DNA of 41,241 nt from NCBI RefSeq assembly GCF_902381825.1, contig NZ_LR698973.1:3203560-3244800 (forward strand). The letters run 5' to 3'. Below, piece after piece: positions 2 through 15,486 of this stretch. The position numbers were made by a program, and so were the translations under genes. The notes under the pieces were generated by a model. That model saw nothing but the letters and a program-made list of their open reading frames with translations, was not told where the DNA came from and did no database searches. This stretch comes from Pseudocoprococcus catus (GTDB lineage Bacteria > Bacillota > Clostridia > Lachnospirales > Lachnospiraceae). Within the stretch, counting starts at the first letter, position 1. Each line of letters opens with the position of its first letter.

Positions 2-1234
2 CGTATTGGTTGTTTCTTTTATTATAAAAAGCGTAAAGAAGAAGGACTCAAACAAAAAATGATATTAGAAGATGCCGCAGAAAAAGCTGATTCTGCCAAC
101 AGAGCCAAATCTTCTTTCTTGCTTAATATGTCTCATGATATACGTACCCCGATGAATGCCATCATTGGTTTTACAGACATTGCACTACACCAACAGAATA
201 TAGATGAGATTCATGACAGCCTGCAAAAGGTCAAAACAAGTTCTGATCATTTACTGCTGTTGTTAAATGAGGTACTGGATTTGAGTCGTGTTGAAAGTGG
301 AAAAGTATCCTTTTCACCTGAGCCCGTGAATCTTCCTGTATTAATTGATAGTGTGATTGCAATCATGGATGGACTTCTTTTGGATAGAAATCTCAACTTT
401 GAAGTACATCGCAACGGACCATCGATGCTCTATGTTATGACAGATTCCACCAGAATTCGTGAAATATTGACGAATCTTTTGAACAATGCAGTTAAATTTA
501 CAGCAGATGGTGGCACTATTACTTTTGAAATGAGTACTCGTCCAGGAGTAGATGAACGCCATATCGTGACATCTTATACAGTCAAAGATACGGGTGTTGG
601 CATGAGCGAGGAATTTCAGAAAAAGCTGTTTGAGCCATTTTCGCAGGAAGATAATGGTGCACGTACTCAGTATAAAGGGACCGGGCTAGGGATGGCTATT
701 ACCAAGCAATATGTGGAGTTGATGGGTGGAGCAATTACGTTTCAAAGTAAAAAGAATTGTGGTTCTTCTTTTACAGTCGAAATTCCCATGGAACTTGCCG
801 ATGAAAAAGAAATTCCAGAACAGAAGACTGTACAGAATATCAGTCTCAATGGCGTTAAGGTGCTTTTGGTTGAGGATAATGACTTAAATGCTGAACTGGC
901 AGTGACATTATTGGAAGATGCCGGTATGTGTGTAACTCGTGCTGTAGATGGGGAAGATGCAGTCAAACTGTTCGCATCTAACCCTGCAGGTACTTATGAC
1001 ATTATCCTGATGGATATCATGATGCCAAAAATGAACGGATATCAGGCAACGAAGGCAATCCGAACAATGAGCGGGGAACGTCCGGATGCAGCAACCATTC
1101 CTATCATAGCCCAGTCCGCTAATGCTTTCAAAGAAGATATTCAGGCTTCGTTGGATTCTGGTATGAATGGGCATATCTCAAAGCCGTTTAACATGGATGA
1201 GGTATCTGTCTCTATAATGCGAAATCTTATCTGA
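2..1234 (+). CDS. Hybrid sensor histidine kinase, 5'-truncated by window edge
   Basis: The reading frame is open from base 2, so the gene starts before the window. The first visible residues (RIGCFFYYKKRKEEG) look like the cytoplasmic end of a membrane segment. Then come a HisKA domain with SHDIRTPMNAIIGF (phospho-His codon 134-136), a HATPase domain with N-box (TNLLNNAVKFT), G1 (KDTGVGMS) and G2 (GTGLGM), and a C-terminal receiver with the acidic pair in VLLVEDN, phospho-Asp in ILMDIMMPKMNGY (codon 1013-1015) and Lys in SKPF. All catalytic residues are present. The missing N-terminus presumably carries the sensor. It resembles the four other kinases of this array, most closely the one at 9225. 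It lies upstream of the riboswitch promoter, so it belongs to a separate transcript. The family call is firm; the ligand is unknown. Confidence 0.95.
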   Translation, partial: RIGCFFYYKKRKEEGLKQKMILEDAAEKADSANRAKSSFLLNMSHDIRTPMNAIIGFTDIALHQQNIDEIHDSLQKVKTSSDHLLLLLNEVLDLSRVESGKVSFSPEPVNLPVLIDSVIAIMDGLLLDRNLNFEVHRNGPSMLYVMTDSTRIREILTNLLNNAVKFTADGGTITFEMSTRPGVDERHIVTSYTVKDTGVGMSEEFQKKLFEPFSQEDNGARTQYKGTGLGMAITKQYVELMGGAITFQSKKNCGSSFTVEIPMELADEKEIPEQKTVQNISLNGVKVLLVEDNDLNAELAVTLLEDAGMCVTRAVDGEDAVKLFASNPAGTYDIILMDIMMPKMNGYQATKAIRTMSGERPDAATIPIIAQSANAFKEDIQASLDSGMNGHISKPFNMDEVSVSIMRNLI

Positions 1235-1419
1235 ACTTAATATATGAATATGAGCAGGATTTTTCTATTTACAACAATATTTTTTACAATATTTCCTTAT
1301 AAGCCATGCAGCCATTTTTCCCATGAAGTTTTATTTCGTAAAGGGCTGTATCTGCACAGCGCATAAGTTGTGAACGGTTAGAAGCAAATGTCGGATATTC
1401 CGAATATCCAAGAGAATTT

Positions 1420-1578
1420 GTGGTGCCTTATATTATTCTGGATACAGTGGCAGATGTAGAAAAAAGTAAGAATGAACTGTTGCATAAAGCAATCGAGGAT
1501 TCCGCTCAAAAGGCACAGGTGCTTACAACAGCAGCAAATGTGAAACTGGGTGAAATACAGGCAATTGATGGAAGTAGG
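1420..1578 (+). pseudogene. Possible remnant of a SIMPL (DUF541) domain C-terminus
   Basis: A short stretch encodes KNELLHKAIEDSAQKAQVLT followed by TAANVKLGEIQAID, which resembles the C-terminal end of SIMPL/DUF541 periplasmic proteins (pattern: ...AVEDSKxKAxVLxxAAGVKLGxIxxIDYSW). Nothing upstream extends the homology, the first codon has no convincing ribosome binding site, and the frame runs into a terminator hairpin. It is therefore best read as a decayed gene end. This is from memory of the family; a profile search would settle it. The rest of 1235-1420 shows no gene that I recognise. Confidence 0.4.
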
Positions 1579-1616
1579 AGAACAGTTCGAGTATATGTAT
1601 CGGCTGTTCTTTTTTG
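1579..1616 (+). terminator. Rho-independent terminator after the gene remnant
   Basis: AGAACAG (1579-1585) pairs with CTGTTCT (1604-1610), with further inner pairing (CGA/TCG), followed by a run of T. It would insulate the riboswitch promoter from upstream transcription. Confidence 0.6.
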
Positions 1617-1652
1617 TTTTTGAACGTTTTTGAACGTTAAAACGGTTTTTTC

Positions 1653-1681
1653 TTGTGCATAGTAGAATATTAAAGTATAAT
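1653..1681 (+). promoter_or_regulatory. Promoter driving the c-di-GMP riboswitch
   Basis: TTGTGC (1653-1658), a 17-bp spacer and a perfect TATAAT (1676-1681) predict a start near 1688, about 27 nt before the aptamer. The -10 is perfect; the -35 matches the consensus at three of six bases. Confidence 0.6.
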
Positions 1682-1714
1682 AAAATCAGTTTTTGGCATA
1701 AGATTAAAGCTATA

Positions 1715-1790
1715 ATAAGGAAATCGGCAAACCAGATGAAAGTCTGGGACGCAAAGCTACAGGGCCTGTAAAATGGCAGCCAGTTGCATA
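1715..1790 (+). promoter_or_regulatory. Cyclic di-GMP-I (GEMM-I) riboswitch aptamer
   Basis: The conserved GEMM-I core is present in order: GGCAAACC, a P2 stem CCAGAT/GTCTGG closed by a GAAA tetraloop, GGGACGCAAAGC, then the P3 arm around GGCCTGT...ATGGCAGCC, and the closing GTTGC that pairs with GCAA. The tetraloop and the G preceding CAAA (1727, equivalent to G20 of the Vibrio Vc2 RNA) fit c-di-GMP rather than cGAMP preference, where an A is usual. An intrinsic terminator follows at 1801, so control is probably by transcription attenuation. I cannot tell ON from OFF: no strong antiterminator pairing is visible. The downstream genes are a solute-binding lipoprotein and a hybrid kinase, and a c-di-GMP phosphodiesterase-like gene lies 10 kb further on in the same run. 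Confidence 0.93.
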
Positions 1791-1800
1791 AAATGAGGTG

Positions 1801-1826
1801 CACTGTCTGTCTGACAGTGTTTTTTT
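1801..1826 (+). terminator. Riboswitch expression-platform terminator
   Basis: CACTGTC (1801-1807), a 5-nt loop and GACAGTG (1813-1819) form a perfect 7-bp stem followed by seven T. It begins 12 nt after the aptamer closing stem and 66 nt before the next start codon, as expected for a transcriptional riboswitch. Confidence 0.85.
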
Positions 1827-1891
1827 ACGGTGTTATTTCACAGACGTAACAATAAATGATTTTATCAGGAAAGAATGAGGAAAATAAAAGT

Positions 1892-3736
1892 ATGAAAAAG
1901 GCAAAACGTTGTCTGATAGCAGTGGTGTCAGGTGTACTTGCAGCAACTGCTGTTTTGTCTGGATGTGGACAGTCAAAGAAAGAAGTATCTAAAAACGATG
2001 ATCATCTTACCGTTTATCTGTGGGAAAACCGTTTGATGAAAAATATTGCACCCTATATTCATGAACAGTTTCCTGATCAGGATATTGAATTTATTATTGG
2101 TAATAATGATACCGATTTATACAGTTATTTTAAAGAACATGATGAATTACCGGATATCATAACAGTACGTCGATTCTCCGGAACAGATGCACAGGACTTA
2201 CAGCCTTATCTTATGGATTTTGCTTCTTATGATGTTGTTTCCAAGTATTATTCTTATGCGGTGCAATATTATAAGAATGCGGAGGATGAAATCCAGTGGC
2301 TGCCAATCTGTGGTATTCCGCAGACGATCATTGCCAACAAAACACTGTTTGATCAGTATGGAATTAAGATTCCAGAAAATTATGAGGAATATGTACAGGC
2401 TTGTCAGCAGTTTTATGATAATGGCATAAAACCGTATTCCATGGATCTTGGTGAAGACTGGTCTAATAATGAAATCATCCAGGCAGCGGCAATCGGTGAG
2501 TTTACAAGCCTGGATGGTATTGAATGGCGAAACGGTGCAGAAACTGCAGTGGATGAAGTAAAGTTTGATGATGCATTATGGAAACGTATTTTTTCAGAAA
2601 CCAGTCAGTTTCTTAAGGACTCGCACTTTGGTAAAGAAGATATCAATATTGACGTCGATACAGGAACCCAGATGTTTGTCGAGGGAAAATCAGCAATGTT
2701 TCATGGACATCCGACGATTATGCAGCAGCTGCAGAAACAGATGGATGCGGAGCTGATCCGTATCCCTTACTTTTCACAGACATCGGATGAATCCTATGTG
2801 TACATGACTCCGTCCTTAAACATTGCATTTAACAAAAACCTGGAAAAAGACCGGGAGAAACTGGATACTGCACTGGATGTGCTGGACTGTATGATTTCAG
2901 AAGAGGGGCAAAAGCTGATTGCGGGTGGAAGTGGTGTTATTTCATTGAATACAGATGTTCCAACCATGATGCAGGATGTGCCTGGACTGGAAGATGAAAT
3001 TAATAATAATGCTGTTTATATCCGATATTCCGCCCAAAAATCATTTCATGCAGGTCTTGAGGCTGTTCACGGATTACTGTCAGGGGAAATGGATGAAACA
3101 CAGGCTTTTGATACTTTGCGCAGTGTAATGAACCGTAAAGATTCAGAAGAAAAAGCAACGGTGAATTTTGAAAATGAATATTCCATTTCACTGAACGATA
3201 GAAGTGGCCGTGATGCAGCATCTTCCATTTTAACTACGATCAGAGAAGAAAATGATGCACAGCTGGCTCTGACACCATATTATTATTTCACTTCTTCTAT
3301 GTACAAAGGAGAATGCACCAATAGCCGGGTTGGCATGATGACAGCGAAGAGTTCAGATACAGCATTATATTTTGCAAAAATGAATGGTAAACAGGTTTGT
3401 GAACTCGTGGAAAATTATCTCGCCGATGCGGATGAGAATTTTTATGTAACCAATAAATACGAATTACCAATTGCATCCGGTATGAAAATGATCGTCAATC
3501 AAGAGGAAAGTGGATTTTCGTTAAAGGACTTAACAGTTAATGATAAGAAAATAGACAAAGAAAAGGAATACTCGATTCTTCTTACAGACACCACAATGTC
3601 TGTTTTGAAAAAAATAAATCCGAAATGTGAGATTGAGCAGCTTAAAGATACAACATTATCAAGTGAATGGATCGAAGCAATGTCAAAAGGACAGCAGCCG
3701 TCAGCACCGGAAGACTATATAGAGGTTGAACAGTAA
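1892..3736 (+). CDS. Lipoprotein: solute-binding domain fused to a 5'-nucleotidase C-like domain
   Basis: A predicted extracytoplasmic lipoprotein of 614 residues. The start at 1892 is preferred over 1856 because it gives a clean signal peptide (MKKAKRCLIAVVSGVLAATA) with lipobox LSGC and has GAGG upstream. Residues ~35-420 resemble a family-1 sugar-binding fold (TVYLWENRLMKNIAPYI; GIPQTIIANKTLFDQYGI). The last ~170 residues resemble the C-terminal domain of 5'-nucleotidases (MNGKQVCELVENYL; PIASGMKMIV; YSILLTDTTM). No metallophosphoesterase domain is present, so the C-domain probably binds rather than cleaves. A paralogue lies at 13636. No ABC transporter genes are nearby; the kinase starts 2 bp downstream, so this is likely its ligand-binding partner. 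Expression is likely under c-di-GMP riboswitch control. Confidence 0.85.
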   Translation: MKKAKRCLIAVVSGVLAATAVLSGCGQSKKEVSKNDDHLTVYLWENRLMKNIAPYIHEQFPDQDIEFIIGNNDTDLYSYFKEHDELPDIITVRRFSGTDAQDLQPYLMDFASYDVVSKYYSYAVQYYKNAEDEIQWLPICGIPQTIIANKTLFDQYGIKIPENYEEYVQACQQFYDNGIKPYSMDLGEDWSNNEIIQAAAIGEFTSLDGIEWRNGAETAVDEVKFDDALWKRIFSETSQFLKDSHFGKEDINIDVDTGTQMFVEGKSAMFHGHPTIMQQLQKQMDAELIRIPYFSQTSDESYVYMTPSLNIAFNKNLEKDREKLDTALDVLDCMISEEGQKLIAGGSGVISLNTDVPTMMQDVPGLEDEINNNAVYIRYSAQKSFHAGLEAVHGLLSGEMDETQAFDTLRSVMNRKDSEEKATVNFENEYSISLNDRSGRDAASSILTTIREENDAQLALTPYYYFTSSMYKGECTNSRVGMMTAKSSDTALYFAKMNGKQVCELVENYLADADENFYVTNKYELPIASGMKMIVNQEESGFSLKDLTVNDKKIDKEKEYSILLTDTTMSVLKKINPKCEIEQLKDTTLSSEWIEAMSKGQQPSAPEDYIEVEQ

Positions 3737-3738
3737 AA

Positions 3739-6078
3739 GTGGAGATAGAACAAACGGTAAATAAAAGAAAAAAAATAACAAGGCTGTTGCTTATACTACT
3801 TATTATTCTTTTAAGCTTAGTTTGTATAAAGTATCTTATAAGTAAGTCTAGCAAGTATATCAGCGAAAATGGAAAAAGCAGTATGGGAGCTGTTGTTGAA
3901 CAGATACAGCAGACCTATGATCTTCAGGTGAGTGGATACTACAGCCAGCTGCAGTTGGTTGAGGAATTTCTACTTCATGAGAGAGAGCTGTCTCTTGAAA
4001 CAGATGTGAACAAAAATTTCTTTGAAGCATGGGAAAAAGAATCGGAAAGCACCCTTATATTCCTTCAGGCAAATGGTCAGGCAATATCAGCAGGTGGAAC
4101 AAAAATGCGGATTGATATGCCAAGTAAACTTCTGCTGGACTTGAAGAACGGATACAATATTGGAAAACTGGTGCGTCTTGATTATGATCAGAAGAAAAAA
4201 GACGGTTATCTGGTTGCGATTCCATGTCAGGAATACACTATCAATGGAGAAACTTATACGGCAATTGGAACTGTGTATGATCATTCGAAACTGGATTCCA
4301 TGTTAAAACTGAAAGGTTATGATGGGAAAGCATATTTGTTCATGCTGGATAATGACGGAAATATTACGTATACGAACCAGAGTGGTGATAAATACCTGCG
4401 TAATTACTCTTTGTTAAAACATTTAAAAGGAGAACAGGCCATTACAGAAGAAGAGGCTGATTTGCTCAAAAAGAAGTTTGATAACAGAGAATCCGGAGTT
4501 GCACTTTTGGGAAAACAGAACCCCTATTATCTGGGGCATTGCCCGATAGAAAGCAACAACACCATTTTGGTATGCATTGTGGCAAGGGAAGTTGTGGACA
4601 ATGTGCTGAGGGATTACCAGAAAACGGTGTTGTGTACAACAATACTCATGGCAGGTTTTATACTTTTACTTTTTGCTGGATTATTCTACAGTATTTCCAG
4701 ACTTAGTCTTGCAGATCAAAAAGCAGAATATGAAAAAAGAAATAATGAACTTCATTTACAAACAATGAAGGAAATGGAAGTAGTCAATCAAAAACTGAAA
4801 AAGGCAAAGAACGTTGCAACAGAGGCTTTACAGACAGCTGAAAATGCAAATAAGGCGAAAACGGATTTCCTGTCTAATATGTCACATGATATTCGTACAC
4901 CTATGAATGCAATCATTGGTATTACGTCTTTGATCAGACATGATGCAGGAAATAAAGCAAAAGTTATAGAGTATGCAGATAAAATAGATATTTCATCACA
5001 GCACCTGTTAGGAATTATCAATGATGTTCTGGATATGAGTAAGATTGAGGCAGGAAAAACAGTCTTCAAGTATTCTGACTTTTCTATTCTGGATCTTGTA
5101 CAGGAACTTAACACTATATTTCATTCTCAAATATATGAAAAGCAGCAGACCCTTACAATCATAAAAGAAAATATTCAGCATGAGTGGGTGAATGGGGATC
5201 AGGTTCATTTGATGCAGATTTTCAGCAACCTGCTTTCCAATGCAGTGAAGTATACCCAGGAAGGTGGGGAAATTCAGTTCTTTGTAGAAGAATGTGAGAC
5301 AAAGTCATCTGTCTATGCAAAGTACCGTTTCTTAGTTAGTGATAATGGTATGGGAATGTCGGCAGATTTCAAGGATACAATTTTTGATGCGTTTACCCGT
5401 GCGGAAAGGTCCCTTACAAACAAAATACAGGGAACCGGACTTGGAATGGCGATTACTAAGAATCTGGTTGAGGCAATGGGAGGTACCATTGATGTGGACA
5501 GTGAATTGGGACAGGGAAGCTGTTTTGAGGTTCTCCTGGATCTGAAGATTACAGAGGATAGAACGGCTGCTCTGGCGGCACAAGAAGAAACGGATGAGCA
5601 GGATGGAAATATCCTTCAGGGAATGAGATTCCTGTGTGCAGAGGATAATGAGCTGAACGCAGAGATCCTGACGGAACTGTTAAAGATTGAAGGTGCGGAA
5701 TGTACCATCTGTGAAAATGGCGAAGAGATTTTGAAAGCATTTGAACAGTCTGCTCCAGGTGATTATGACATGATCCTGATGGATGTGCAGATGCCTGTTA
5801 TGAATGGTTATGAGGCAACGAAAGCAATCCGCAGAAGTTCCCATGAACTGGCAAAGACGATTCCGATCATTGCCATGACTGCCAATGCATTCTCGGAGGA
5901 CATTCAGCATTCTCTGGCAGCCGGTATGAATGCTCATGTTTCAAAACCGGTTGAGATGAAGGTGCTGGAAAAGACGATCAGAAGCATAAAATTCGGGGGG
6001 GGGGTACCGAACCGCTGGTCATTGAATAGTAACAAATGGCAGAAAATCAGATATGAAAAAAACGAAAAGTATAGTTAG
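3739..6078 (+). CDS. Membrane hybrid sensor histidine kinase (Cache-like sensor, HisKA, HATPase, REC)
   Basis: GTG start 2 bp after the lipoprotein stop, so translation is probably coupled. Layout: TM1 at residues ~14-33, an extracytoplasmic sensor of ~260 residues (Cache-like by length and position), TM2 ~296-319, a coiled coil, HisKA with SHDIRTPMNAIIGI (His383), HATPase with SNLLSNAVKYT, DNGMGMS and GTGLGM, and a receiver with AEDNELNAE and LMDVQMPVMNGY (Asp682). After the receiver a run of ten G (5995-6004) sets the reading frame of the tail: the current frame adds an unconserved ~24-residue tail, whereas eight G would end in ...GTEPLVIE followed by tandem stops TAG TAA. The window therefore may carry an off-frame allele or an indel error. 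The kinase core is unaffected. Confidence 0.93.
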   Translation: MEIEQTVNKRKKITRLLLILLIILLSLVCIKYLISKSSKYISENGKSSMGAVVEQIQQTYDLQVSGYYSQLQLVEEFLLHERELSLETDVNKNFFEAWEKESESTLIFLQANGQAISAGGTKMRIDMPSKLLLDLKNGYNIGKLVRLDYDQKKKDGYLVAIPCQEYTINGETYTAIGTVYDHSKLDSMLKLKGYDGKAYLFMLDNDGNITYTNQSGDKYLRNYSLLKHLKGEQAITEEEADLLKKKFDNRESGVALLGKQNPYYLGHCPIESNNTILVCIVAREVVDNVLRDYQKTVLCTTILMAGFILLLFAGLFYSISRLSLADQKAEYEKRNNELHLQTMKEMEVVNQKLKKAKNVATEALQTAENANKAKTDFLSNMSHDIRTPMNAIIGITSLIRHDAGNKAKVIEYADKIDISSQHLLGIINDVLDMSKIEAGKTVFKYSDFSILDLVQELNTIFHSQIYEKQQTLTIIKENIQHEWVNGDQVHLMQIFSNLLSNAVKYTQEGGEIQFFVEECETKSSVYAKYRFLVSDNGMGMSADFKDTIFDAFTRAERSLTNKIQGTGLGMAITKNLVEAMGGTIDVDSELGQGSCFEVLLDLKITEDRTAALAAQEETDEQDGNILQGMRFLCAEDNELNAEILTELLKIEGAECTICENGEEILKAFEQSAPGDYDMILMDVQMPVMNGYEATKAIRRSSHELAKTIPIIAMTANAFSEDIQHSLAAGMNAHVSKPVEMKVLEKTIRSIKFGGGVPNRWSLNSNKWQKIRYEKNEKYS
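5995..6004 (+). repeat. G10 homopolymer tract inside a kinase gene
   Basis: Ten consecutive G near the 3' end of the kinase gene. Length 10 encodes a long tail; length 9 ends in ...GGGYRTAGH; length 8 or 11 ends in ...TEPLVIE. Such tracts are prone to slipped-strand change, and also to sequencing error. Confidence 0.95.
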
Positions 6079-6091
6079 GAATAGATAGAAA

Positions 6092-6907
6092 ATGAAAGGA
6101 AAAAGAGTGATCGCAGGCATACTGCTTGCGGGAATTTTAGCAGTTACCCTGGCAGGGTGTAAAAATACAGATAACACGAAAGAAGAAACCGAAAAGCATG
6201 TTATTACCCTCGGCAGCGACAACTATCCACCATACAATTATCTGAATGAGGATGGTGTACCGACGGGAATCGATGCAGAACTGGCTACGGAAGCTTTTAA
6301 AAGAATGGGATATCAGGTGGAGGTTGTCCAGATCAACTGGGAGAAGAAAAAAGAACTGGTGGAGAGCGGAGAGATTGACTGTATCATGGGCTGCTTTTCT
6401 ATGGAAGGGCGCCTTGACGATTACCGCTGGGCAGGGCCGTACATAGCAAGCCGTCAGGTGGTTGCTGTAAATGAGAATAGTGATATTTATAAACTGAGTG
6501 ACCTGGAGGGAAAGAACCTGGCTGTTCAGTCCACAACCAAACCGGAAGGCATCTTTCTGAACCGGACGGATGAGAGAATCCCAAAGCTGGGCAATCTGAT
6601 CAGCCTGGGACACAGGGAGCTGATCTATACATTTCTGGGAAAAGGATATGTAGACGCAGTCGCCGCACATGAGGAATCTGTTGTCCAGTATATGAAGGAT
6701 TATGACGCAAGCTTTCGTATCCTGGAAGAACCTTTGATGATCACTGGAATAGGTGTTGCTTTTGCAAAAGATGATGACAGAGGAATCTGTGAGCAGATGG
6801 ATCAGACACTGGAAGAGATGCGTCAGGATGGTACATCCCTGAAAATTATTGAAAAATATCTGGATGATCCCCAGAAGTATCTGGAGGTGGATGACCTTGG
6901 GTATTAA
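6092..6907 (+). CDS. Family-3 solute-binding lipoprotein (amino-acid type), sensor partner
   Basis: 271 residues. The signal peptide ends in a lipobox (LAVTLAGC), so the protein is membrane-anchored outside the cell. The mature part is a single SBP3 fold: ITLGSDNYPPYNYLNEDG at the start of lobe 1, GIDAELATEAFKRMGY, then GEIDCIMGCFSMEGRLDDY and LSDLEGKNLAVQS typical of amino-acid binding proteins. No permease or ATPase gene follows; instead a hybrid kinase overlaps its 3' end by 17 bp. The likely role is to present a small ligand to that kinase rather than to a transporter. The neighbouring kinase at 9225 has the same domain built in twice. Ligand unknown. Confidence 0.88.
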   Translation: MKGKRVIAGILLAGILAVTLAGCKNTDNTKEETEKHVITLGSDNYPPYNYLNEDGVPTGIDAELATEAFKRMGYQVEVVQINWEKKKELVESGEIDCIMGCFSMEGRLDDYRWAGPYIASRQVVAVNENSDIYKLSDLEGKNLAVQSTTKPEGIFLNRTDERIPKLGNLISLGHRELIYTFLGKGYVDAVAAHEESVVQYMKDYDASFRILEEPLMITGIGVAFAKDDDRGICEQMDQTLEEMRQDGTSLKIIEKYLDDPQKYLEVDDLGY

Positions 6908-9065
6908 GCGAAAGAAAAGAGAAAAACGAATCCAGCTGCTCGGTGCTCTGATTGGAATCTGTGTGGCTGTAGTCTCTCTGTTTTATTTCTTCCACGCAGA
7001 AAAAGCAGAAGCAGAGAAAAGAATGGTGGAGATTGTAAACTATGTCAAAGTGCAGTGCTCCACCTACACCCATTATAATGAATCTTCGGAATCCAAAAGT
7101 CTTCTCCGGGCCATTGAAAGTGCCAGACAGATGAGTACGAATATCGACATGGAAATAGAAAACGGCGGTCAGCTAAGTCAGGAGTTCCTGAAAGAAAATC
7201 TGCAGACTCTCTGGGTGGATGGTATCCTTGTGCTGGATACAGAAGGAAAGGCGGACTGTGAATACAGCATGGATGAGTCTCTGACCGGTGAGATTACGGC
7301 ATATCTGCAAAAAGATATTATCATGGATTTTGCCGGATATGAAGAAAGATCTTATTCGGAACGGTTTGCCAGGGAAGACGGATCCTATATTGATATTGCA
7401 GCCTGTGCCAGAAAAGATGCACCGGGTATTGTGGCAATCTACTATTATACACCTCCTGAATTTGCCAGAAACTATACCCTGACGATACAGGGGCTTTTAA
7501 ATGGTTATAGTATCCAGAAGGATGGGACGATCATTGTTGCAGACGATGGGATCGTTGTTGCCAGCAATGATGAGAGTCTGTTGGGACAGAATACAGCCGA
7601 CAACGAAGTTGTTCAGGCAATGAAGAGGCATGCAGACAGTCAGCACATTTATCATTTGAAGAATGAAGGAACTGGATGCTACGGAATCATGCTGAAGCAG
7701 AGGGATTATTATATCTATGCGTATCTTCCGGATACGGAAGTGTTTCATAATCTTCCATTAAGTGTTATAGGTGTTATTTTTCTTTATTTTCTGGTGTTCA
7801 GTGTATTCTGGTTCTGGACATACAGAACAAATCTGGTGCACCGGAAACAGGAATTGGAAAAAGATGAAGAATATAAAAGAGAACTTCTGATAACTGCAAA
7901 AAAGGCAGAGGCTGCCAATCGGGCGAAGACGGAATTTCTCCAGCGGATGAGCCATGATATCCGGACTCCGATCAATGGGATCCGAGGCATGGTCAATATG
8001 GCAGACCATTATGCAGATGATATGGAGAAGCAGACGGAATACAGGACAAAGGTGAAAGAGGCTTCCAATCTGTTGCTGGAACTGGTAAATGATGTTCTGG
8101 ATATGAGTAAGCTTGAGTCAGGTGAAGTTGTTCTGGAAGAGAGTCCATTTAATCTGAGCAGTATTTTCAGGGAAGTATTTGGTGTGATCGAGCAGATGGC
8201 AGCAGAACAGAATATCCGGATCGTGTGGGAGAAAAAAGAAATCACATACCAGGATCTTATTGGAAGTCCGGGGTATGTGAAACGTGTGATGATGAATATT
8301 CTGTCCAATGCAGTGAAATATAACAGAGAAAACGGACAGATCTATATCAGCTGCATTGAAATTCCATCCAAACAGCCGGAAATGACGACGATGGAATTTG
8401 TCTGCCGGGATACCGGAATCGGAATGTCATATGAGTTCCAGAAACATATTTTTGAACCATTTGCACAGGAACATACGGGAAGCCGCACAAAATTTGCCGG
8501 AACAGGTCTGGGAATGCCGATTACCAAAAAACTGGTTAAAAAAATGGGCGGAACCATTTCTTTTGAAAGTAAAAAAGGCGTAGGGACGACATTTGTGATC
8601 CGGGTTCCATTTAAAATAGATCCGGATGCGGATAAAGGCAAAGAACAGACGGATGCATCAGAAAAATCTATAAAGGGGCTGCATATTCTTCTGGCGGAAG
8701 ATAATGAGCTGAATATGGAAATCGCAGAATTTATGCTTCAGAATGAAGGTGCTGATGTGGCAAAAGCATGGAATGGACAGGAAACTGTTGAATTATTCAA
8801 AAAAAGTGAACCTGGTGAATTTGATGTCATTCTTATGGACATTATGATGCCGGTAATGAATGGTTATGAAGCTACAAAGATGATCAGGTCTCTAGACAGA
8901 GAGGATGCAAAGACAATACCGATCATTGCAATGACAGCAAATGCGTTCACGGAGGACAGAATAAGAGCAAAAGCAGCAGGAATGAATGCACATATTGCAA
9001 AACCCATTGATAGTAAAAAAATAGAGGATACTTTGCTATTGGTTTTAAAACAGAAAATGCAGTAA
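6891..9065 (+). CDS. Membrane hybrid sensor histidine kinase
   Basis: About 724 residues. The start is uncertain: ATG 6891 is only 3 nt from GGAGG (6883-6887), while TTG 6897 has ideal 9-nt spacing; both overlap the SBP3 stop, so the two genes are translationally coupled. TM1 ~15-33, an extracytoplasmic Cache-like sensor, TM2 ~289-311 (VIGVIFLYFLVFSVFWF), HisKA with SHDIRTPINGIRGM (His355), HATPase with MNILSNAVKYN, RDTGIGMS and GTGLGM, receiver with LLAEDNELNME and LMDIMMPVMNGY (Asp650) and Lys in AKPI. All catalytic residues are intact. The receiver would need an HPt partner or direct dephosphorylation; no HPt is visible in the window. Confidence 0.93.
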   Translation: MTLGIKRKKREKRIQLLGALIGICVAVVSLFYFFHAEKAEAEKRMVEIVNYVKVQCSTYTHYNESSESKSLLRAIESARQMSTNIDMEIENGGQLSQEFLKENLQTLWVDGILVLDTEGKADCEYSMDESLTGEITAYLQKDIIMDFAGYEERSYSERFAREDGSYIDIAACARKDAPGIVAIYYYTPPEFARNYTLTIQGLLNGYSIQKDGTIIVADDGIVVASNDESLLGQNTADNEVVQAMKRHADSQHIYHLKNEGTGCYGIMLKQRDYYIYAYLPDTEVFHNLPLSVIGVIFLYFLVFSVFWFWTYRTNLVHRKQELEKDEEYKRELLITAKKAEAANRAKTEFLQRMSHDIRTPINGIRGMVNMADHYADDMEKQTEYRTKVKEASNLLLELVNDVLDMSKLESGEVVLEESPFNLSSIFREVFGVIEQMAAEQNIRIVWEKKEITYQDLIGSPGYVKRVMMNILSNAVKYNRENGQIYISCIEIPSKQPEMTTMEFVCRDTGIGMSYEFQKHIFEPFAQEHTGSRTKFAGTGLGMPITKKLVKKMGGTISFESKKGVGTTFVIRVPFKIDPDADKGKEQTDASEKSIKGLHILLAEDNELNMEIAEFMLQNEGADVAKAWNGQETVELFKKSEPGEFDVILMDIMMPVMNGYEATKMIRSLDREDAKTIPIIAMTANAFTEDRIRAKAAGMNAHIAKPIDSKKIEDTLLLVLKQKMQ

Positions 9066-9072
9066 GACAATT

Positions 9073-9153
9073 CTTTGGGTTGTGTTTCTGGCAGCCCCGG
9101 TCAGGGCGGCAGATTTAGATGAAGATATTGATGCTGCAGTGCAATTTTATTAA
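9073..9153 (+). other. Short open frame, possible secreted-protein remnant
   Basis: Between two kinases, a 26-codon frame reads LWVVFLAAPVRAADLDEDID and ends in TAA. It looks like the tail of a signal peptide plus a mature start, but it has no start codon with a ribosome binding site. Either coincidence or the vestige of a lost binding-protein gene. Confidence 0.15.
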
Positions 9154-9162
9154 ACCAGGAGG

Positions 9163-9192
9163 TTGACAAGGAGATGTATAGAGAAATATATT
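9163..9192 (+). promoter_or_regulatory. Strong internal promoter of the sensory array
   Basis: A perfect TTGACA (9163-9168), an 18-bp spacer and TATATT (9187-9192). The predicted start, about 9199, falls inside the (GACA)5 repeat and leaves a leader of ~26 nt before the ATG at 9225. This would give the downstream half of the array transcription independent of the riboswitch. Confidence 0.7.
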
Positions 9193-9193
9193 T

Positions 9194-9213
9194 GACAGAC
9201 AGACAGACAGACA
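9194..9213 (+). repeat. (GACA)5 tetranucleotide repeat
   Basis: Five perfect GACA units lie between the -10 element and the AGGAG ribosome binding site of the kinase at 9225. Loss or gain of a unit would alter the transcription start region and leader length by 4 nt. The copy number is exact in this window. Confidence 0.95.
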
Positions 9214-9224
9214 GGAGATTTAAT

Positions 9225-12053
9225 ATGATTTCGAGAGCAAAGAAATATGTGGCAGTGTTACTGGTTTTTGTATGCGTGTGTATGATATTTTCTCCCCAGA
9301 CTGCATATGCAGCCGAGGACAATTCGCAGCATGAAACTGTCAAAGTCGGTTTCTTTGCCATGGATGGTTATCATGTGATGGATGAAGAAGGCAACCGCAG
9401 TGGGTATGGCTATGATTTTCTTCGGCTGATGGCCCGTTATTGGGATATAGATTACGAATATGTCGGATATGATAAGAGCTGGGATGATATGCAGCAGATG
9501 CTTGAAGATGGCGAGATCGACATGGTAACATCTGCCCGCAAAACACCGGACAGAGAAGAAAAGTTTGATTTTTCACGTCCCATCGGAACCAATTATGGGA
9601 TGCTGACCGTCCGCAGTGACAACAGCACGATTGTGGACGGCAATTACAGCACTTATAACGGTATGCGTGTGGCGCTTTTGAACGGAAACACCCGGAATGA
9701 AGAGTTTGCGGATTTTGCAGACAACAAAGGATTTACATATGTTCCATCTTATTTTGATACGACCGCAGAGATGGCGGAAGCCCTTCAGAGCGAAAAAGTT
9801 GATGCGATTGTTACCAGTTCTCTGAGAAAAACAAACAATGAGCGAATCGTGGATAAATTTGGCAGCAGCGATTTCTATGTCATTGTTAAAAAGGGTAATA
9901 CAGAATTGCTGAATGAGATCAATTATGCGATCGATCAGATGAATGCGGTTGAGGGTGACTGGAAAACGACGCTTTACAATAAAAATTATGAAAGCATAGA
10001 AACTAAGAATCTGGAATATACGGAGCAAGAAAAAAGTATTATTGCACAATATTCCAAGGACAACCCAATTCGTGTTCTGTGTGATCCGACCCGTTATCCA
10101 TATTCTTATAATGAAAATGGTGAGATGAAGGGGATTATCCCGGATTACTTCCGGAAAATTGCAGACTATGCCGGGATTTCCTATGAGTTTCTTACACCTG
10201 CCACCAGAGATGAGTATATTGCTTATCAGAAAAATAAGGAAACCACAGATATGAGCATCGATGCGCGCCTGGAAACAGATAACTATGCTGAGACGAAAAA
10301 ATGGGGGATTACTGCACCTTTCATTACGATGCAGCTGGCAAGGGTGACACGGCGTGACTTTGATGGAAAAATTAATGTTGTTACTACTGTTGACCAGACA
10401 GTATCAAATTCAATTGAAGATGCAATGGCACCCGGCGCAGAAAAACTGATGTGCAGTACCCGACAGGAAATGATGGAAGCTGTCCGTGAGGGTAAAGCAG
10501 ATGCTGCCTTCGTCTACTATTACATGGCACAGGCGTTTGTGAATAGTGACACCACAGGCACCCTGACATATACTCTGCTGGAACAGCCTACATACACCTA
10601 CCGCATGGTAATATCATCAACAGAGAATCATGCACTGGCTGGCATCCTGACGAAAGCAATGTATGCCATGCCAAAAAATCTTGTCGAAGATCTAGCAGCA
10701 CGGTATACCACATACAAAGCAACAGATCTGACATTTGTTGACTGGATCCGTCTGCATCCTGTTGTTACTGTTTTGGCTCTTCTTATTTTTGGATGGCTGC
10801 TGACTATTATGGCTGTGACAATGGTGCGTCTCAGTGCAAGAAAAAAAGCTCAGAAGGCGGTTCAGGAGAAAGCTGAGGAAATGGCGGAACTGGCAGAGCA
10901 TGCACAGGCTGCAAACAAGGCAAAAACAGCATTTCTGTCACATATGTCCCATGATATGAGGACACCGATGAATGCAATCATAGGATTTACCGGTATTGCA
11001 ATGAAAAACAATCCGTCAGACGAAGTGAAAAATTGTCTGGAAAAGATTGACGAAAGCTCAGAGCATTTACTGTCGCTGATCAATGATATATTAGATCTGA
11101 CCCGCATCGAAAATGGAAAAGTGAAATACAATCCGGTACCGGCGGATGTGAAAAACATTACAGATTCTGCATTGGATATTACAAAAGGCTTTCTTACGAA
11201 CAGGGATATCAACTTTAAGATTCAGCGTGAAGAAGCAAAGATTCCAAATGTACTTGCGGATCCTGCACGCCTGCGTGATGTGCTGGTCAATATTCTGAGC
11301 AATGCCGCGAAATTCACTCCGGATGGAGGGACGATTACATTTGAAGCCCGGTGTCTGGAAAAGGGCGGGGATGGATATATAAATATGCGTTACCGCATTT
11401 CGGATACTGGTATTGGCATGAGTGAGGAATTTACAAAAGAAGTTTTTGAGGAATTTGCACAGGAAGATTCCGATGTGAGAACGCAGTACCATGGAGTTGG
11501 ACTGGGGATGGCTATCGTAAAGAAGTATGTAGATATGATGGGTGGAACCATTTCCGTGCAGAGTAAAAAGCATGAGGGAACCACATTTACTGTGGATATT
11601 CCTTTGGAAATTACAGATAAGGAATGTAATAAGTCAGACACAGGTTTTTCTGAAAAGGTAAATCTTACAGGTGTGAATGTCCTTCTTGCAGAGGATAATG
11701 AACTGAATGCAGAGATTGCTGCCGTGCAGTTGGAAGAGTTCGGGATGAATGTAGAAAGAGTTGTGGATGGAAAGAATGCTGTTGAGATTTTCAGAAATCA
11801 TCCGGAAGGCACATTTGATGTAATCCTGATGGATATCATGATGCCTGAAATGAATGGTTATGAAGCAGCAAAAGCAATCAGGGCAATGAATGACAGACCG
11901 GATGGGAAAAACATTCCTATTATAGCAATGACAGCTAATTCATTTGCAGAAGATGTTCAGGCATCACTGGATGCAGGAATGAACGCACATTTGTCAAAGC
12001 CGATTGTGATTGATGAAGTTATAAAAACGATTTTAAGGTATGTATATAATTGA
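9225..12053 (+). CDS. BvgS/EvgS-like hybrid histidine kinase with two SBP3 sensor domains
   Basis: 942 residues. I chose ATG 9225: AGGAG lies 7 nt upstream and a signal peptide follows (cleavage after ...QTAYAA). An in-frame ATG at 9174 lies upstream of the promoter -10 and has no usable ribosome binding site. Two tandem SBP3 domains outside the membrane: ~40-262 (VKVGFFAMDGYHVMDEEG; GEIDMVTSARKTPDREEKF) and ~280-500 (IRVLCDPTRYPYSYNENGEM). One TM ~512-534, coiled coil, HisKA with SHDMRTPMNAIIGF (His576), HATPase (VNILSNAAKFT, SDTGIGMS, GVGLGM), receiver with LMDIMMPEMNGY (Asp870). The layout matches Venus-flytrap kinases such as BvgS/EvgS but lacks their PAS and HPt parts. The G2 motif reads GVGLGM instead of GTGLGM. 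Confidence 0.95.
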   Translation: MISRAKKYVAVLLVFVCVCMIFSPQTAYAAEDNSQHETVKVGFFAMDGYHVMDEEGNRSGYGYDFLRLMARYWDIDYEYVGYDKSWDDMQQMLEDGEIDMVTSARKTPDREEKFDFSRPIGTNYGMLTVRSDNSTIVDGNYSTYNGMRVALLNGNTRNEEFADFADNKGFTYVPSYFDTTAEMAEALQSEKVDAIVTSSLRKTNNERIVDKFGSSDFYVIVKKGNTELLNEINYAIDQMNAVEGDWKTTLYNKNYESIETKNLEYTEQEKSIIAQYSKDNPIRVLCDPTRYPYSYNENGEMKGIIPDYFRKIADYAGISYEFLTPATRDEYIAYQKNKETTDMSIDARLETDNYAETKKWGITAPFITMQLARVTRRDFDGKINVVTTVDQTVSNSIEDAMAPGAEKLMCSTRQEMMEAVREGKADAAFVYYYMAQAFVNSDTTGTLTYTLLEQPTYTYRMVISSTENHALAGILTKAMYAMPKNLVEDLAARYTTYKATDLTFVDWIRLHPVVTVLALLIFGWLLTIMAVTMVRLSARKKAQKAVQEKAEEMAELAEHAQAANKAKTAFLSHMSHDMRTPMNAIIGFTGIAMKNNPSDEVKNCLEKIDESSEHLLSLINDILDLTRIENGKVKYNPVPADVKNITDSALDITKGFLTNRDINFKIQREEAKIPNVLADPARLRDVLVNILSNAAKFTPDGGTITFEARCLEKGGDGYINMRYRISDTGIGMSEEFTKEVFEEFAQEDSDVRTQYHGVGLGMAIVKKYVDMMGGTISVQSKKHEGTTFTVDIPLEITDKECNKSDTGFSEKVNLTGVNVLLAEDNELNAEIAAVQLEEFGMNVERVVDGKNAVEIFRNHPEGTFDVILMDIMMPEMNGYEAAKAIRAMNDRPDGKNIPIIAMTANSFAEDVQASLDAGMNAHLSKPIVIDEVIKTILRYVYN

Positions 12054-12102
12054 TTAGCAGAGGTTCATGAATTAGTGGAAGACAATAAAGGAAAGTAAAA
12101 AT

Positions 12103-13602
12103 ATGGATAAAAGGCAAAGAGTACTGATTGTTGATGATGCAAAGCTCAATAGGGATATATTGAAGGAGATTCTCGGAGAAACTTATAATTATCTGGAAGC
12201 CGAAAATGGAAATCAGGCAGTCCAGATGCTAGGAGAAAATATTGGAATTGATCTGATGCTTTTAGATATCAATATGCCACAGATGAATGGCTTTGAAGTC
12301 TTGGAAATAATGAAAAGAAGCCAGTGTATTGCTGAAACTCCTGTCATCATGATATCTTCAGAAGATGACGTTGATACTATGCGTAAAGCATATGAGCTGG
12401 GAATCACGGATTATATTACACGACCGTTTGATTCTGTGATTGTAAAGAAAAGAGTCCAAAACACTTTAGGGCTCTATGCGAACCAAAAGCATCTGATTAG
12501 TGTAGTTTATGATCAGGTTTACGAAAAAGAAGAAAATAATAACATCATGATCCGGATACTGAGTAATGTATTGGGATCTCGTAACAGCGAGAGCAGAGAA
12601 CACATTCTGCATATTAAAACAGCAACGGAAATGATGCTGAGACAACTGGTGAAAATAACTGATGCTTATCCACTGACAGAGGCGGATATTTCTTTGATTA
12701 CAACGGCATCTTCCCTTCATGACATTGGTAAGATTCGCATTCAAGAGGAAATACTGAACAAACCTGGCAGACTTACTGATGAAGAATTCAAGATCATGAA
12801 AACTCATAGTGAGCTCGGGGAAGCTATAATCAAGGATATGGATTTTCCACAAGATCATCCGTTGGTACGTACTGCATGGGAAATCTGCAGATGGCACCAT
12901 GAAAGATGGGACGGAAAGGGCTATCCGGATGGCCTGAAAGGAGAAGAAATACCAATCTGTGCACAGGTGGTATCGATTGTTGATGTTTATGATGCACTTA
13001 CCAGTGAAAGATGTTATAAGAAAGCATTTGATCATGACACAGCGATTCAAATGATCCTGGATGGGCAATGCGGACAATTTAATCCAATCCTCCTTAAGTG
13101 TCTGAAAGAACTGAGTATCCAGCTTTCAAAAATGTCTGGTAAAGAGACAGATGATAATAAACATTATTATGAAATACAGAGACTTTCGAATGAAATACTC
13201 AGCGACAGATCTTTACCGAGCCAAAACTATTCACAGAGTGTTGTCAAGGTCATGCAGGAAAAAATCGATTTCTTCAAATCAAACAGTGGAATGAACTCAA
13301 TTGATTACAATGCAATTTCAGGCCAATTAACTATCTTAAACGGAGAACATCAGATATTATGTCAGAGAGATAATCCGAATTTCAATTTGTTCAAAGAATT
13401 TGGAGTAAATGAAGAAGATGTTCAATGTATTCGTGTTTTATTACATCAGACATCTGTACAAAATAAAGAAATATCTGCCACGATAAAAGCGACGGTGGAA
13501 AATAACAGTCAGATGTATAAACTGAAACTGCACACGTTGTGGTCGCCTTTTAAGAAGGATGGATACATCGGAATTGTTGGATATTTTGACATTGCAGAAT
13601 AG
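12103..13602 (+). CDS. REC-HD-GYP response regulator, predicted c-di-GMP phosphodiesterase
   Basis: 499 residues, cytosolic. Receiver at ~1-125 (VLIVDDAKLNRDIL; Asp55 in LLDINMPQMNGF; Lys replaced by Arg in ITRPFD, where most receivers have KP). HD-GYP domain at ~160-345: His206-Asp207 in LHDIGKI, then HSELGEAII, then HHERWDGKGYP (His265-His266, Gly273-Tyr274-Pro275), GLKGEEIP and VDVYDALTSERCYK. All signature residues of active HD-GYP enzymes, which hydrolyse c-di-GMP to pGpG/GMP, are present. The C-terminal ~150 residues are not recognised. It is the only response regulator with an output domain in the array, so the hybrid kinases may feed it. Together with the riboswitch at 1715 it suggests c-di-GMP feedback. 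The Lys-to-Arg change is visible; its effect is unknown. Confidence 0.93.
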   Translation: MDKRQRVLIVDDAKLNRDILKEILGETYNYLEAENGNQAVQMLGENIGIDLMLLDINMPQMNGFEVLEIMKRSQCIAETPVIMISSEDDVDTMRKAYELGITDYITRPFDSVIVKKRVQNTLGLYANQKHLISVVYDQVYEKEENNNIMIRILSNVLGSRNSESREHILHIKTATEMMLRQLVKITDAYPLTEADISLITTASSLHDIGKIRIQEEILNKPGRLTDEEFKIMKTHSELGEAIIKDMDFPQDHPLVRTAWEICRWHHERWDGKGYPDGLKGEEIPICAQVVSIVDVYDALTSERCYKKAFDHDTAIQMILDGQCGQFNPILLKCLKELSIQLSKMSGKETDDNKHYYEIQRLSNEILSDRSLPSQNYSQSVVKVMQEKIDFFKSNSGMNSIDYNAISGQLTILNGEHQILCQRDNPNFNLFKEFGVNEEDVQCIRVLLHQTSVQNKEISATIKATVENNSQMYKLKLHTLWSPFKKDGYIGIVGYFDIAE

Positions 13603-13635: not shown

Positions 13636-15486
13636 ATGAAAATGAAAAAATGGAGCAGAGTTCTGGCTGTACTTTTGGCGCTGGTGACAGCCGTGTTACT
13701 TCTGTCAGCGTGTGGCGGGAAGCGTGCAGAAAAAGAAGATGCAGAAACAATAACGGTGTATTTATGGAGCACAAAACTGTATGATAAATATGCACCATAT
13801 ATTCAGGAACAGCTCCCGGATATCAATGTTGAATTTGTTGTAGGCAATAATGATCTGGATTTCTATAAGTTTCTTAAAGAAAACGGTGGCTTGCCGGACA
13901 TTATAACCTGCTGCCGTTTTTCACTTCATGATGCAAGTCCCCTGAAAGACAGCCTGATGGATCTTTCCACAACCAATGTTGCTGGTGCTGTCTATGATAC
14001 CTATCTTAACAATTTTATGAATGAGGATGGAAGCGTAAACTGGCTTCCAGTGTGTGCGGATGCCCATGGTTTTGTAGTGAACAAAGACCTTTTTGAAAAG
14101 TATGATATCCCTCTTCCAACAGATTACAAAAGTTTTGTTTCCGCCTGCCAGGCATTTGACAAAGTGGGAATCCGTGGGTTTACGGCAGACTATTATTATG
14201 ATTATACCTGTATGGAAACACTGCAGGGACTGTCTGCATCAGAATTGTCTTCTGTGGACGGACGCAAGTGGCGTACCACCTACAGTGACCCGGATAATAC
14301 AAAGAGAGAAGGGTTGGACAATACAGTCTGGCCGAAGGCTTTTGAACGTATGGAGCAGTTTATCCAGGATACAGGGCTTAGCCAGGATGATCTGGATATG
14401 AATTATGATGACATCGTTGAGATGTATCAAAGTGGCAAGCTTGCTATGTACTTTGGCAGCTCCTCGGGGGTAAAAATGTTTCAGGATCAGGGCATTAACA
14501 CGACATTTCTGCCATTCTTTCAGGAGAATGGCGAAAAGTGGCTGATGACTACGCCATATTTCCAGGTGGCTTTAAACCGAGACCTGACACAGGATGAAAC
14601 ACGCCTGAAGAAAGCAAATAAGGTATTGAATATAATGCTTTCAGAGGATGCGCAGACTCAGATCCTTTATGAGGGACAGGATCTGTTGAGTTACAGTCAG
14701 GATGTGGATATGCAGCTTACGGAATATCTGAAAGATGTAAAACCTGTGATTGAAGAAAATCATATGTATATCCGCATTGCATCAAATGACTTTTTCTCTG
14801 TTTCCAAGGATGTGGTTTCTAAGATGATCTCAGGAGAGTACGATGCAGAGCAGGCCTATGAGTCATTTAACACTCAGCTTCTTGAGGAGGAATCCCATTC
14901 TGAGAGTGTCGTGCTGGATTCACAGAAATCTTATTCCAATCGTTTTCATAGCAGTGGAGGAAATGCAGCATATTCTGTCATGGCAAACACGTTGCGTGGT
15001 ATTTATGGGACGGATGTGCTGATCGCAACTGGAAACAGCTTTACAGGGAACGTACTGAAAGCCGGCTATACAGAAAAAATGGCAGGCGACATGATCATGC
15101 CAAATGATCTGGCAGCTTACAGCAGCACGATGAATGGAGCTGAACTGAAAGAGACTGTTAAAAACTTTGTAGAAGGCTATGAGGGAGGCTTCATTCCGTT
15201 TAATCGTGGCTCTCTGCCTGTGTTCAGCGGCATTTCTGTGGAAGTCAAAGAAACAGAGGATGGTTATACATTGAGCAAAGTTACAAAAGATGGAAAAAAA
15301 GTTCAGGACAATGATACTTTCACAGTAACCTGTCTTGCGATACCAAAACACATGGAGACTTATCTGGCAGATGAGAATATTGTGTTTGATGGAGGGGATA
15401 CCTCTGTGAAGGATACCTGGACAGGATATACTTCAGATGGTGAGGCCATTCTTGTAGAGCCTGAAGATTATATTAATGTGAGATGA
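13636..15486 (+). CDS. Lipoprotein: solute-binding domain fused to a 5'-nucleotidase C-like domain (paralogue)
   Basis: 616 residues, GGGGGGA ribosome binding site 7-8 nt before ATG. Signal peptide with lipobox LLLSAC. Residues ~36-420 form a family-1 solute-binding fold (ITVYLWSTKLYDKYAPYI; WLPVCADAHGFVVNKDLF). Residues ~430-600 resemble the C-terminal domain of 5'-nucleotidases more clearly than in the paralogue at 1892: VLIATGNSFTGNVLKAGY, MNGAELKETVKNF, PVFSGISVEV and DTFTVTCLAIP. No metal-dependent nuclease domain, so hydrolysis is unlikely. The stop overlaps the next kinase start (ATGA), which couples the two. Inference: a ligand-capture partner of that kinase; a nucleotide-like ligand is possible but unproven. 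Confidence 0.85.
   Translation: MKMKKWSRVLAVLLALVTAVLLLSACGGKRAEKEDAETITVYLWSTKLYDKYAPYIQEQLPDINVEFVVGNNDLDFYKFLKENGGLPDIITCCRFSLHDASPLKDSLMDLSTTNVAGAVYDTYLNNFMNEDGSVNWLPVCADAHGFVVNKDLFEKYDIPLPTDYKSFVSACQAFDKVGIRGFTADYYYDYTCMETLQGLSASELSSVDGRKWRTTYSDPDNTKREGLDNTVWPKAFERMEQFIQDTGLSQDDLDMNYDDIVEMYQSGKLAMYFGSSSGVKMFQDQGINTTFLPFFQENGEKWLMTTPYFQVALNRDLTQDETRLKKANKVLNIMLSEDAQTQILYEGQDLLSYSQDVDMQLTEYLKDVKPVIEENHMYIRIASNDFFSVSKDVVSKMISGEYDAEQAYESFNTQLLEEESHSESVVLDSQKSYSNRFHSSGGNAAYSVMANTLRGIYGTDVLIATGNSFTGNVLKAGYTEKMAGDMIMPNDLAAYSSTMNGAELKETVKNFVEGYEGGFIPFNRGSLPVFSGISVEVKETEDGYTLSKVTKDGKKVQDNDTFTVTCLAIPKHMETYLADENIVFDGGDTSVKDTWTGYTSDGEAILVEPEDYINVR

Follow-up and report, generated by a model that had tools for sequence, protein, structure and literature searches.

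A c-di-GMP-I riboswitch, probably an OFF switch, heads a laterally transferred sensory gene array that encodes a predicted c-di-GMP phosphodiesterase

We analyzed a stretch of the Pseudocoprococcus catus genome of 41,241 bases (hereafter the window), in which an RNA leader precedes an array of eight genes for extracellular substrate-binding proteins (SBPs), hybrid sensory kinases, and a response regulator of the REC-HD-GYP type. On the reading we consider likely, a transcriptional OFF riboswitch of the cyclic di-GMP-I (c-di-GMP-I, or GEMM-I) class heads a laterally transferred, modular sensory operon that is coupled to its own second messenger. The DNA itself shows the aptamer, the order of the genes, catalytic motifs that are intact, promoter-like and terminator-like sites, and lateral transfer of leader and modules; we infer ligand binding, read-through to the response regulator gene at 12103, its enzyme activity, and control of this putative phosphodiesterase (PDE) by the kinases. 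Below, genomes compared carry G numbers (G001 being the nearest), loci carry L numbers, and the modules of the array are called A to E. The leader comprises the following elements.

1576..1613, + strand: predicted intrinsic terminator 5′ of the leader, a stem followed by a T-rich tract (RNA fold of 1572–1625, −14.0 kcal/mol)
1653..1681, + strand: promoter-like TTGTGC-17-TATAAT (sequence; kept in most aligned homologous leaders)
1716..1791, + strand: c-di-GMP-I (GEMM-I) riboswitch aptamer (RF01051 covariance model)
1775..1811, + strand: predicted antiterminator hairpin, in which 1775–1789 pairs with 1798–1811 (folding, 20 leaders)
1800..1826, + strand: intrinsic terminator (terminator scan, folding, 20-leader alignment)

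Searching both strands of the window with Rfam returned a single match at gathering level, RF01051 at 1716–1791 on the + strand, aligned over the whole model (1–87 of 87; 64.3 bits, E 1.8e-10; gathering cutoff 35 bits). An earlier reading made from the sequence only had claimed the GEMM-I core motifs and proposed this covariance-model check, which bears it out, with GGCAAACC at 1726, the GAAA loop, GGGACGCAAAGC, and GTTGC all found. On the Vc2 numbering that we take to apply to the window motif, the bases matching G20, A47, and C92 are all in the aptamer. The same three bases are given as ligand contacts in the portion of PMC4744006 consulted. We detected no pairing beside C92 that would form an outer P1 helix, either by eye or in folds with the aptamer enforced, and the corresponding positions of the RF01051 consensus are likewise unpaired. 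By its sequence, the window RNA is an ordinary GEMM-I member. The conserved A two bases before G20 is a U in the window; the idea that this marks decay was dropped, T being the commonest base there (38 of 73 cores, in a rough regex tally that counts false matches in).

The terminator stem, GCACTGTC-TGTCT-GACAGTGT at 1800–1820, has 7 bp plus one G-U pair and runs into seven T at 1820–1826, so the 7-bp terminator of the earlier reading stands as well. The fold energy of this 28-nt stretch is −12.0 kcal/mol (z −3.9), which none of 200 shuffles reached. The ATG of the first gene lies 3′ of the leader, at 1892. The terminator predicted at 1576–1613, whose loop exceeds the range of our simple scan (loops of 3–8 only), would shield the leader from upstream transcription.

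Folding predicts that the leader can adopt competing forms. The antiterminator strand at 1775–1789 is the 3′ strand of aptamer helix P3 together with the presumed ligand-contact C, its partner at 1798–1811 is the 5′ strand of the terminator, and in the folds the hairpin is incompatible with both the P3 3′ strand and the terminator. When enforced, antiterminator and terminator are near-equal alternatives (minimum energies of −32.4 and −32.8 kcal/mol); in growing-chain folding, the antiterminator has a probability of ~0.5 for RNA ends at 1805–1817, which fall before terminator completion, and the terminator dominates at 1821. Aptamer and terminator can coexist because the first ends before the second begins. 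An alignment of 20 leader copies (alignment A2; L040 was omitted because its terminator has another sequence, and the leaders of L185, L186, L149, L150, and L174 lie outside it) keeps the terminator paired in 160 of 160 cells, with two pairs changed on both sides, a result equaled by 3 of 500 shuffles. The aptamer is paired in 98% of 300 cells and the antiterminator in 96.5% of 260, and the presumed G20 is conserved in 20/20. The leader of L040 is without the conserved promoter-like TTGTGC-17-TATAAT.

Because folding predicts that ligand binding frees the terminator, the leader is probably an OFF switch. At low c-di-GMP, the P3 3′ strand would pair with the terminator 5′ strand and polymerase would read through; at high c-di-GMP, the ligand would keep that strand in the aptamer, the terminator would form, and the binding proteins, hybrid kinases, and REC-HD-GYP phosphodiesterase would not be produced. 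The nearest mechanistic model is Cd1, the RF01051 switch of the C. difficile flagellar operon, which in the consulted parts of PMC9262584 has the same aptamer fold, the same order of aptamer then terminator, a coexisting aptamer and terminator, an antiterminator drawn partly from the aptamer 3′ strand, and OFF polarity by the same logic; a P1 helix went undetected in Cd1. The predicted window structures likewise combine a compatible aptamer and terminator with an antiterminator that rivals both. Unlike Cd1, the window switch heads sensory kinases and c-di-GMP enzymes rather than flagellar genes, and its module occurs in several genera. An ON switch, in which c-di-GMP would stabilize the antiterminated form and produce negative feedback through the phosphodiesterase, is unlikely: GEMM-I-type aptamers are found with both polarities, and pilM is ON with a homologous aptamer (PMC9262584, same parts), but the aptamer and terminator in the window are non-overlapping, the antiterminator takes the aptamer 3′ strand, and the C. 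difficile class I c-di-GMP switches are OFF in the excerpts available of PMC11477304.

Behind this probable OFF switch, eight genes on the + strand run to 18443, in the module order A-C-B-D-E.

1892..3736, + strand: lipoprotein with SBP_bac_1/8 and a 5′-nucleotidase C-terminal domain, module A (Pfam; lipobox)
3739..6078, + strand: hybrid kinase HisKA-HATPase-REC, module A (Pfam; H-box, REC Asp)
6092..6907, + strand: SBP_bac_3 lipoprotein, module C (Pfam; lipobox)
6849..9065, + strand: hybrid kinase HisKA-HATPase-REC, module C (Pfam; H-box, REC Asp)
9174..12053, + strand: hybrid kinase with two SBP_bac_3 domains, then HisKA-HATPase-REC, module B (Pfam; H-box, REC Asp)
12103..13602, + strand: REC-HD-GYP response regulator, predicted c-di-GMP phosphodiesterase, module D (Pfam; motifs)
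13636..15486, + strand: SBP_bac_8 lipoprotein, module E (Pfam, lipobox; 5_nucleotid_C match weak, below cutoff)
15483..18443, + strand: hybrid kinase HisKA-HATPase-REC-REC, module E (Pfam; H-box, REC Asp)

The spacing between successive genes is 2 nt, 13 nt, an overlap, 108 nt, 49 nt, 33 nt, and an overlap, and the simple scan (loops of 3–8) found no + strand intrinsic terminator in these gaps; a GNAT gene (Pfam) follows the array at 18533. The sequence-only reading had placed the REC-HD-GYP gene in the same + strand run as the leader, and it is indeed there and intact. All three free SBP proteins have a lipobox, and all four kinases have an intact H-box and REC aspartate. No DNA-binding domain occurs among the Pfam matches of the array proteins, so the REC-HD-GYP protein is the array's only stand-alone response regulator, and the array kinases may phosphorylate it. 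Like known REC-HD-GYP phosphodiesterases (Pfam HD_5; PDB 4mcw/4mdz/4me4), it joins REC to HD-GYP with the HD and HHExxDGxGYP signatures intact (LHDIGK and HHERWDGKGYP), and it aligns through both motifs with 4mcw (E 9e-38); we predict a c-di-GMP phosphodiesterase. Unlike them, it has ~165–180 residues past the matched HD-GYP region, and its gene belongs to a sensor array that has been laterally transferred and has a c-di-GMP riboswitch at its head.

We looked for relatives of the array by searching the first protein alone against genome contigs, which finds close relatives only. This gave eight loci, seven at 95–96% amino-acid identity over the best segment (in Clostridium fessum, Blautia schinkii, Fusicatenibacter saccharivorans, Faecalibacillus intestinalis, Hominisplanchenecus faecis, Eubacterium ramulus, and Blautia sp. 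Marseille-P3087) and one, a second Fusicatenibacter locus, at 80%. Faecalibacillus belongs to Erysipelotrichia; the other named carriers are Lachnospiraceae, which we take to be of a different class. As a vertical control outside the array, we compared a DinG-type protein in ten genomes: it is 98% identical in G001 and 47–51% identical in eight other family genomes, and gave no match in the Faecalibacillus genome. Of these ten genomes, nine share the main array DNA blocks at 81–97% identity, with shorter or more diverged blocks down to 67%; the tenth, G026, matches the leader only (257 nt at 87%), and G270 matches mainly the phosphodiesterase gene (81%). The 4.4-kb stretch of leader plus module A occurs in one of six genomes of the genus Faecalibacillus. 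Contamination of that contig is unlikely, because congeners share DNA from upstream of the array: of the 5.9 kb upstream, most is present in two of them at 80–91%, with the last 0.9 kb beside the array outside these matches. By these comparisons, leader and modules have been laterally transferred, between genera and once to another class.

Carriage on a plasmid or phage was considered and dropped, a megablast of 1620–18443 against plasmid and phage collections giving scraps of 44 and 64 nt only; the 64-nt scrap, in phage record MT835802.1 (9865–9928; human faecal samples), is a 90.6% match to the aptamer region. Large serine recombinases lie just upstream of two Fusicatenibacter arrays (L058 7751–9430 and L185 5372–7174), and a TOTE-type primase-helicase gene adjoins the L185 array. 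A guaA-like gene at 20142 was set aside in favor of DinG as the vertical control because it resembles a paralogue: it is 98% identical to one G001 copy and 54–56% identical to the longer GuaA-type genes of all ten genomes, the second G001 copy included. Its product (20142–21131) is GMP-synthase-like and has no glutaminase domain in Pfam; the gene is probably a diverged GuaA paralogue.

The combination of modules differs between loci. The arrays of L056, L057, and L063 are A-B, and those of L059 and L061 are A-C-D; L058 has A-C-E, an opposite-strand gene, and then a second leader with B (seen in L094); L060 has C-E-A-B plus another SBP3-kinase; and L062 has a different kind of kinase followed by A. 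Not all modules are intact: the kinase of module A is broken in L060, the SBP in L061, and the greater part of the array in L036. G001 has two leaders in a single array. Homology to the window starts at 1570 in seven loci (L056, L057, L058, L059, L061, L037, and L039) and at 1626–1636 in others.

A GEMM-I RNA lies just upstream in six of the eight loci found by the first protein, a set that was not selected by RNA; the remaining loci were found partly through the RNA or leader, and their GEMM-I rate is biased accordingly. RF01051 matches at gathering level precede kinase modules or a GGDEF gene in L037 (twice), L094 (twice), L039, L095, L099, L042, L142, L143, L144, L149, L150, L040, and L036, with further matches above cutoff in L174, L141, L185, and L186. 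G001 alone has five GEMM-I RNAs, four of which precede kinase genes. Of 397 sampled genomes of the family, 134 contain RF01051. Leader DNA, or at least the aptamer, gives matches at E 1e-10 in 52 of the 397, with two candidates scored for each genome; in eleven of the 52, the match covers most of the leader (in two pieces for G207), and in G027 it covers the promoter half only. The G027 locus (L060 9823–9950, the same as L044) keeps the promoter and first gene and has lost the whole aptamer and terminator stem, which makes it a natural comparison for riboswitch loss. GEMM-I matches also occur in tandem, two or three in a row (G300:C26:727–987, G120, G299, G338, and G094).

Relatives of the window's leader and other GEMM-I RNAs of the family also stand before genes for c-di-GMP enzymes. 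In L042 (G026), L099 (G197), and L145 (G270), the gene behind the window's leader lineage encodes a GGDEF protein whose GGDEF motif is intact; in L099, an SBP3-histidine kinase and a histidine kinase come next, and in L145, the GGDEF gene comes first and is followed by a REC-HD-GYP gene whose product shares 80% identity with that of the window. The GEMM-I RNA of L174 (G197; 65.0 bits) is a different one and lies directly before an 80%-identical phosphodiesterase relative and then module E. Four of the 397 genomes have phosphodiesterase matches of at least 80% (E cut at 1e-100), and in two of these the match is interrupted by a single stop (G229, nearly full-length; G183, partial). Genes for REC-GGDEF (L110), REC-GGDEF-EAL (L034), and dCache-GGDEF (L108) proteins lie behind further GEMM-I RNAs of the family. 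Among 47 first-downstream proteins surveyed, GGDEF was the commonest family (6), with MCP at 3 and EAL at 2. These 47 come from 63 picked by regex, with 10 loci yielding none; the 16 dropped were 4 masked, 7 from cassette-class or already-counted kinase loci, and 5 starting 408–618 nt from the aptamer (L070 and L071 were kept though similarly distant). HATPase_c was absent among the 25 families listed of 58 in this survey, in which many proteins were cut at ~1.5 kb and kinases could be missed. The phosphodiesterase relatives behind a GEMM-I RNA in L174 and L145 favor a real link from riboswitch to c-di-GMP enzyme.

The sequence-only reading had proposed that c-di-GMP, the sensors, and the phosphodiesterase form a feedback loop. 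Its RNA-to-enzyme leg now has comparative support, because GEMM-I RNAs in relatives directly precede a cyclase (L099, L042, L145) or a phosphodiesterase orthologue (L174), and its kinase-to-phosphodiesterase leg is putative; the proposal gave the loop no sign, and the phosphodiesterase leg would be self-reinforcing if the switch is OFF. Reviews, in the parts consulted, state that c-di-GMP riboswitches rarely control cyclase or phosphodiesterase genes; the portion of PMC9495176 consulted, running against that "rarely," says in general terms that they control synthesis and degradation. A riboswitch-HD-GYP operon appears in neither the consulted portions of PMC5816809 nor those of PMC9495176.

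Several observations weigh against a working switch that governs the whole array. Over the 20 leaders, antiterminator covariation was not above that of shuffles, and proof by covariation failed. The presumed C92 is kept in 18 of the 20, being U in L141 and L039, and L142 has lost one conserved G-C pair. The L145 aptamer is degenerate (scored as L177), with a best clan score of 42.2 bits against a cutoff of 59 (RF03167). Kinase-module loci without a Rfam-detectable aptamer exist: L060; L062, where none lies ahead of the array, and L187 at the same place; L184; and L175 (G229), which encodes a cyclase, a phosphodiesterase, and an SBP3-histidine kinase. One GEMM-I RNA of G001 (C9, 38.5 bits) has no kinase gene after it on its strand. 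The REC-HD-GYP gene is whole only in L059 and L061 of the eight protein-found loci, with short fragments in L057 and L060. A promoter-like TTGACA-18-TATATT at 9163–9192 could uncouple the 3′ half of the array.

The changed C92 in two leaders and the lost pair in L142, with the loss of aptamer and terminator stem in G027, a T-run broken in G001 (C67a), and leader remnants inside the arrays of L142 and L146, would fit a leader that is the decaying passenger of a mobile module and has lost its regulation. We consider this unlikely, given that the window aptamer scores well above cutoff, its T-run is whole, the presumed G20 is invariant in the alignment, and two terminator pairs show changes on both sides yet stay paired. 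The promoter-like site bears on whether the riboswitch, though real, is limited to the first module or modules (1892–6078, or to 9065), in which case an internal promoter near 9163, or read-through that starts elsewhere, would drive the REC-HD-GYP gene and there would be no loop. The 9163 site scores 11/12, the best in 1200–20200 and equaled by one at 19981, the array's longest gap falls there, and module combinations vary between genomes. But the promoter scan of that region gave 66 sites against 50.9 in shuffles, the TTGACA may be a chance occurrence, lying partly on the AGGAGG ribosome-binding site, the array gaps hold no terminator in the scan, and in L174 and L145 a GEMM-I RNA lies one or two genes from the phosphodiesterase relative. 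We regard such limited reach as rather doubtful.

A ligand other than c-di-GMP, for example 3′,3′-cGAMP, is very unlikely. An A at G20 shifts specificity to 3′,3′-cGAMP, and some related GEMM-I RNAs have A at the presumed position (L174 8236–8329 and L040 7969–8044); the 12103 protein sequence also resembles PDB 5z7c, a cGAMP-specific HD-GYP enzyme. However, the base is G in the window and in all aligned leaders, and all six array hosts tested have GGDEF proteins. Cores with A at this position also occur in L016, L079, and L086, and two A20 GEMM-I RNAs adjoin sensory kinase genes or the phosphodiesterase relative.

The array also contains repeat tracts. A (GACA)5 repeat at 9194–9213, near the start of the module B kinase (9174–9230 region), is a candidate slipped-strand phase-variation tract: it has 5 copies in the window, 11 in L057, 12 in L037, 10 in L094, and 2 each in L060 and L063, and is absent from the L056 kinase. 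Relative to the ATG upstream of it, the kinase frame is kept in the window and L057 and lost in L037, L094, L060, and L063, the L060 and L063 regions also differing by 2 nt. A G10 tract at 5995–6004, at the 3′ end of the module A kinase, has homologues of 7 to 10 G in L056–L061 and L063, and the kinase tail after REC in the window (G10) is unlike that of L058 and L061 (G8). Elsewhere in the window (34902–40766), two iron-only hydrogenase-like genes flank a SpoIIE phosphatase gene and are followed by Fur and rubrerythrin genes.

The nearest precedent we found for a riboswitch before a kinase is CmrRST of C. difficile, and it qualifies the earlier statement that no GEMM riboswitch was known before an SBP/kinase array, in that a class II c-di-GMP riboswitch there precedes a kinase. 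According to the parts of PMC8844915 consulted, a c-di-GMP riboswitch heads the two-component system of CmrRST too, and that locus is subject to phase variation. Unlike the window, its riboswitch raises transcription (ON), its operon comprises two DNA-binding regulators and one kinase with neither an SBP-kinase array nor a c-di-GMP enzyme, and its phase variation works by inversion of a DNA segment rather than repeat slippage; the window, with its class I aptamer and no DNA-binding domain in the array, is not of the CmrRST type. In the openly licensed literature (CC0, CC BY, CC BY-SA), we found nothing joining c-di-GMP riboswitch, Lachnospiraceae, and histidine kinase, and c-di-GMP riboswitch together with Lachnospiraceae only in a review. 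What appears to be new is that a class I c-di-GMP switch moves together with modules of sensory kinases and with c-di-GMP enzymes.

The predicted phosphodiesterase, or in relatives sometimes a cyclase instead of or beside it, would couple the unit to the messenger that controls it. The loop in the window would be self-reinforcing because the predicted switch is OFF and the array encodes a phosphodiesterase: with a phosphodiesterase alone, the double-negative loop would tend to fix the cell in one of two states, high or low, and cyclase versions would form a homeostatic loop, signs that follow from the predicted polarity. Since highly similar copies occur in distantly related gut bacteria, the unit may be a transferable feedback circuit. 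Tentatively, leader, sensor modules, and c-di-GMP enzymes might together constitute a self-referential c-di-GMP set-point cassette, exchanged by gut Firmicutes across genera and classes, in which the leader would place new sensors and enzymes under the host's c-di-GMP, the enzyme would set bistable (phosphodiesterase) or homeostatic (cyclase) behavior, and the GACA and poly-G tracts would add heritable switching. Cyclases, a phosphodiesterase, and sensors that might act on them lie behind one leader lineage and other GEMM-I RNAs in this family, which makes it testable whether a lateral transfer brings along second-messenger feedback of its own, and whether the circuit is homeostatic or bistable according to which enzyme, cyclase or phosphodiesterase, stands behind the switch.

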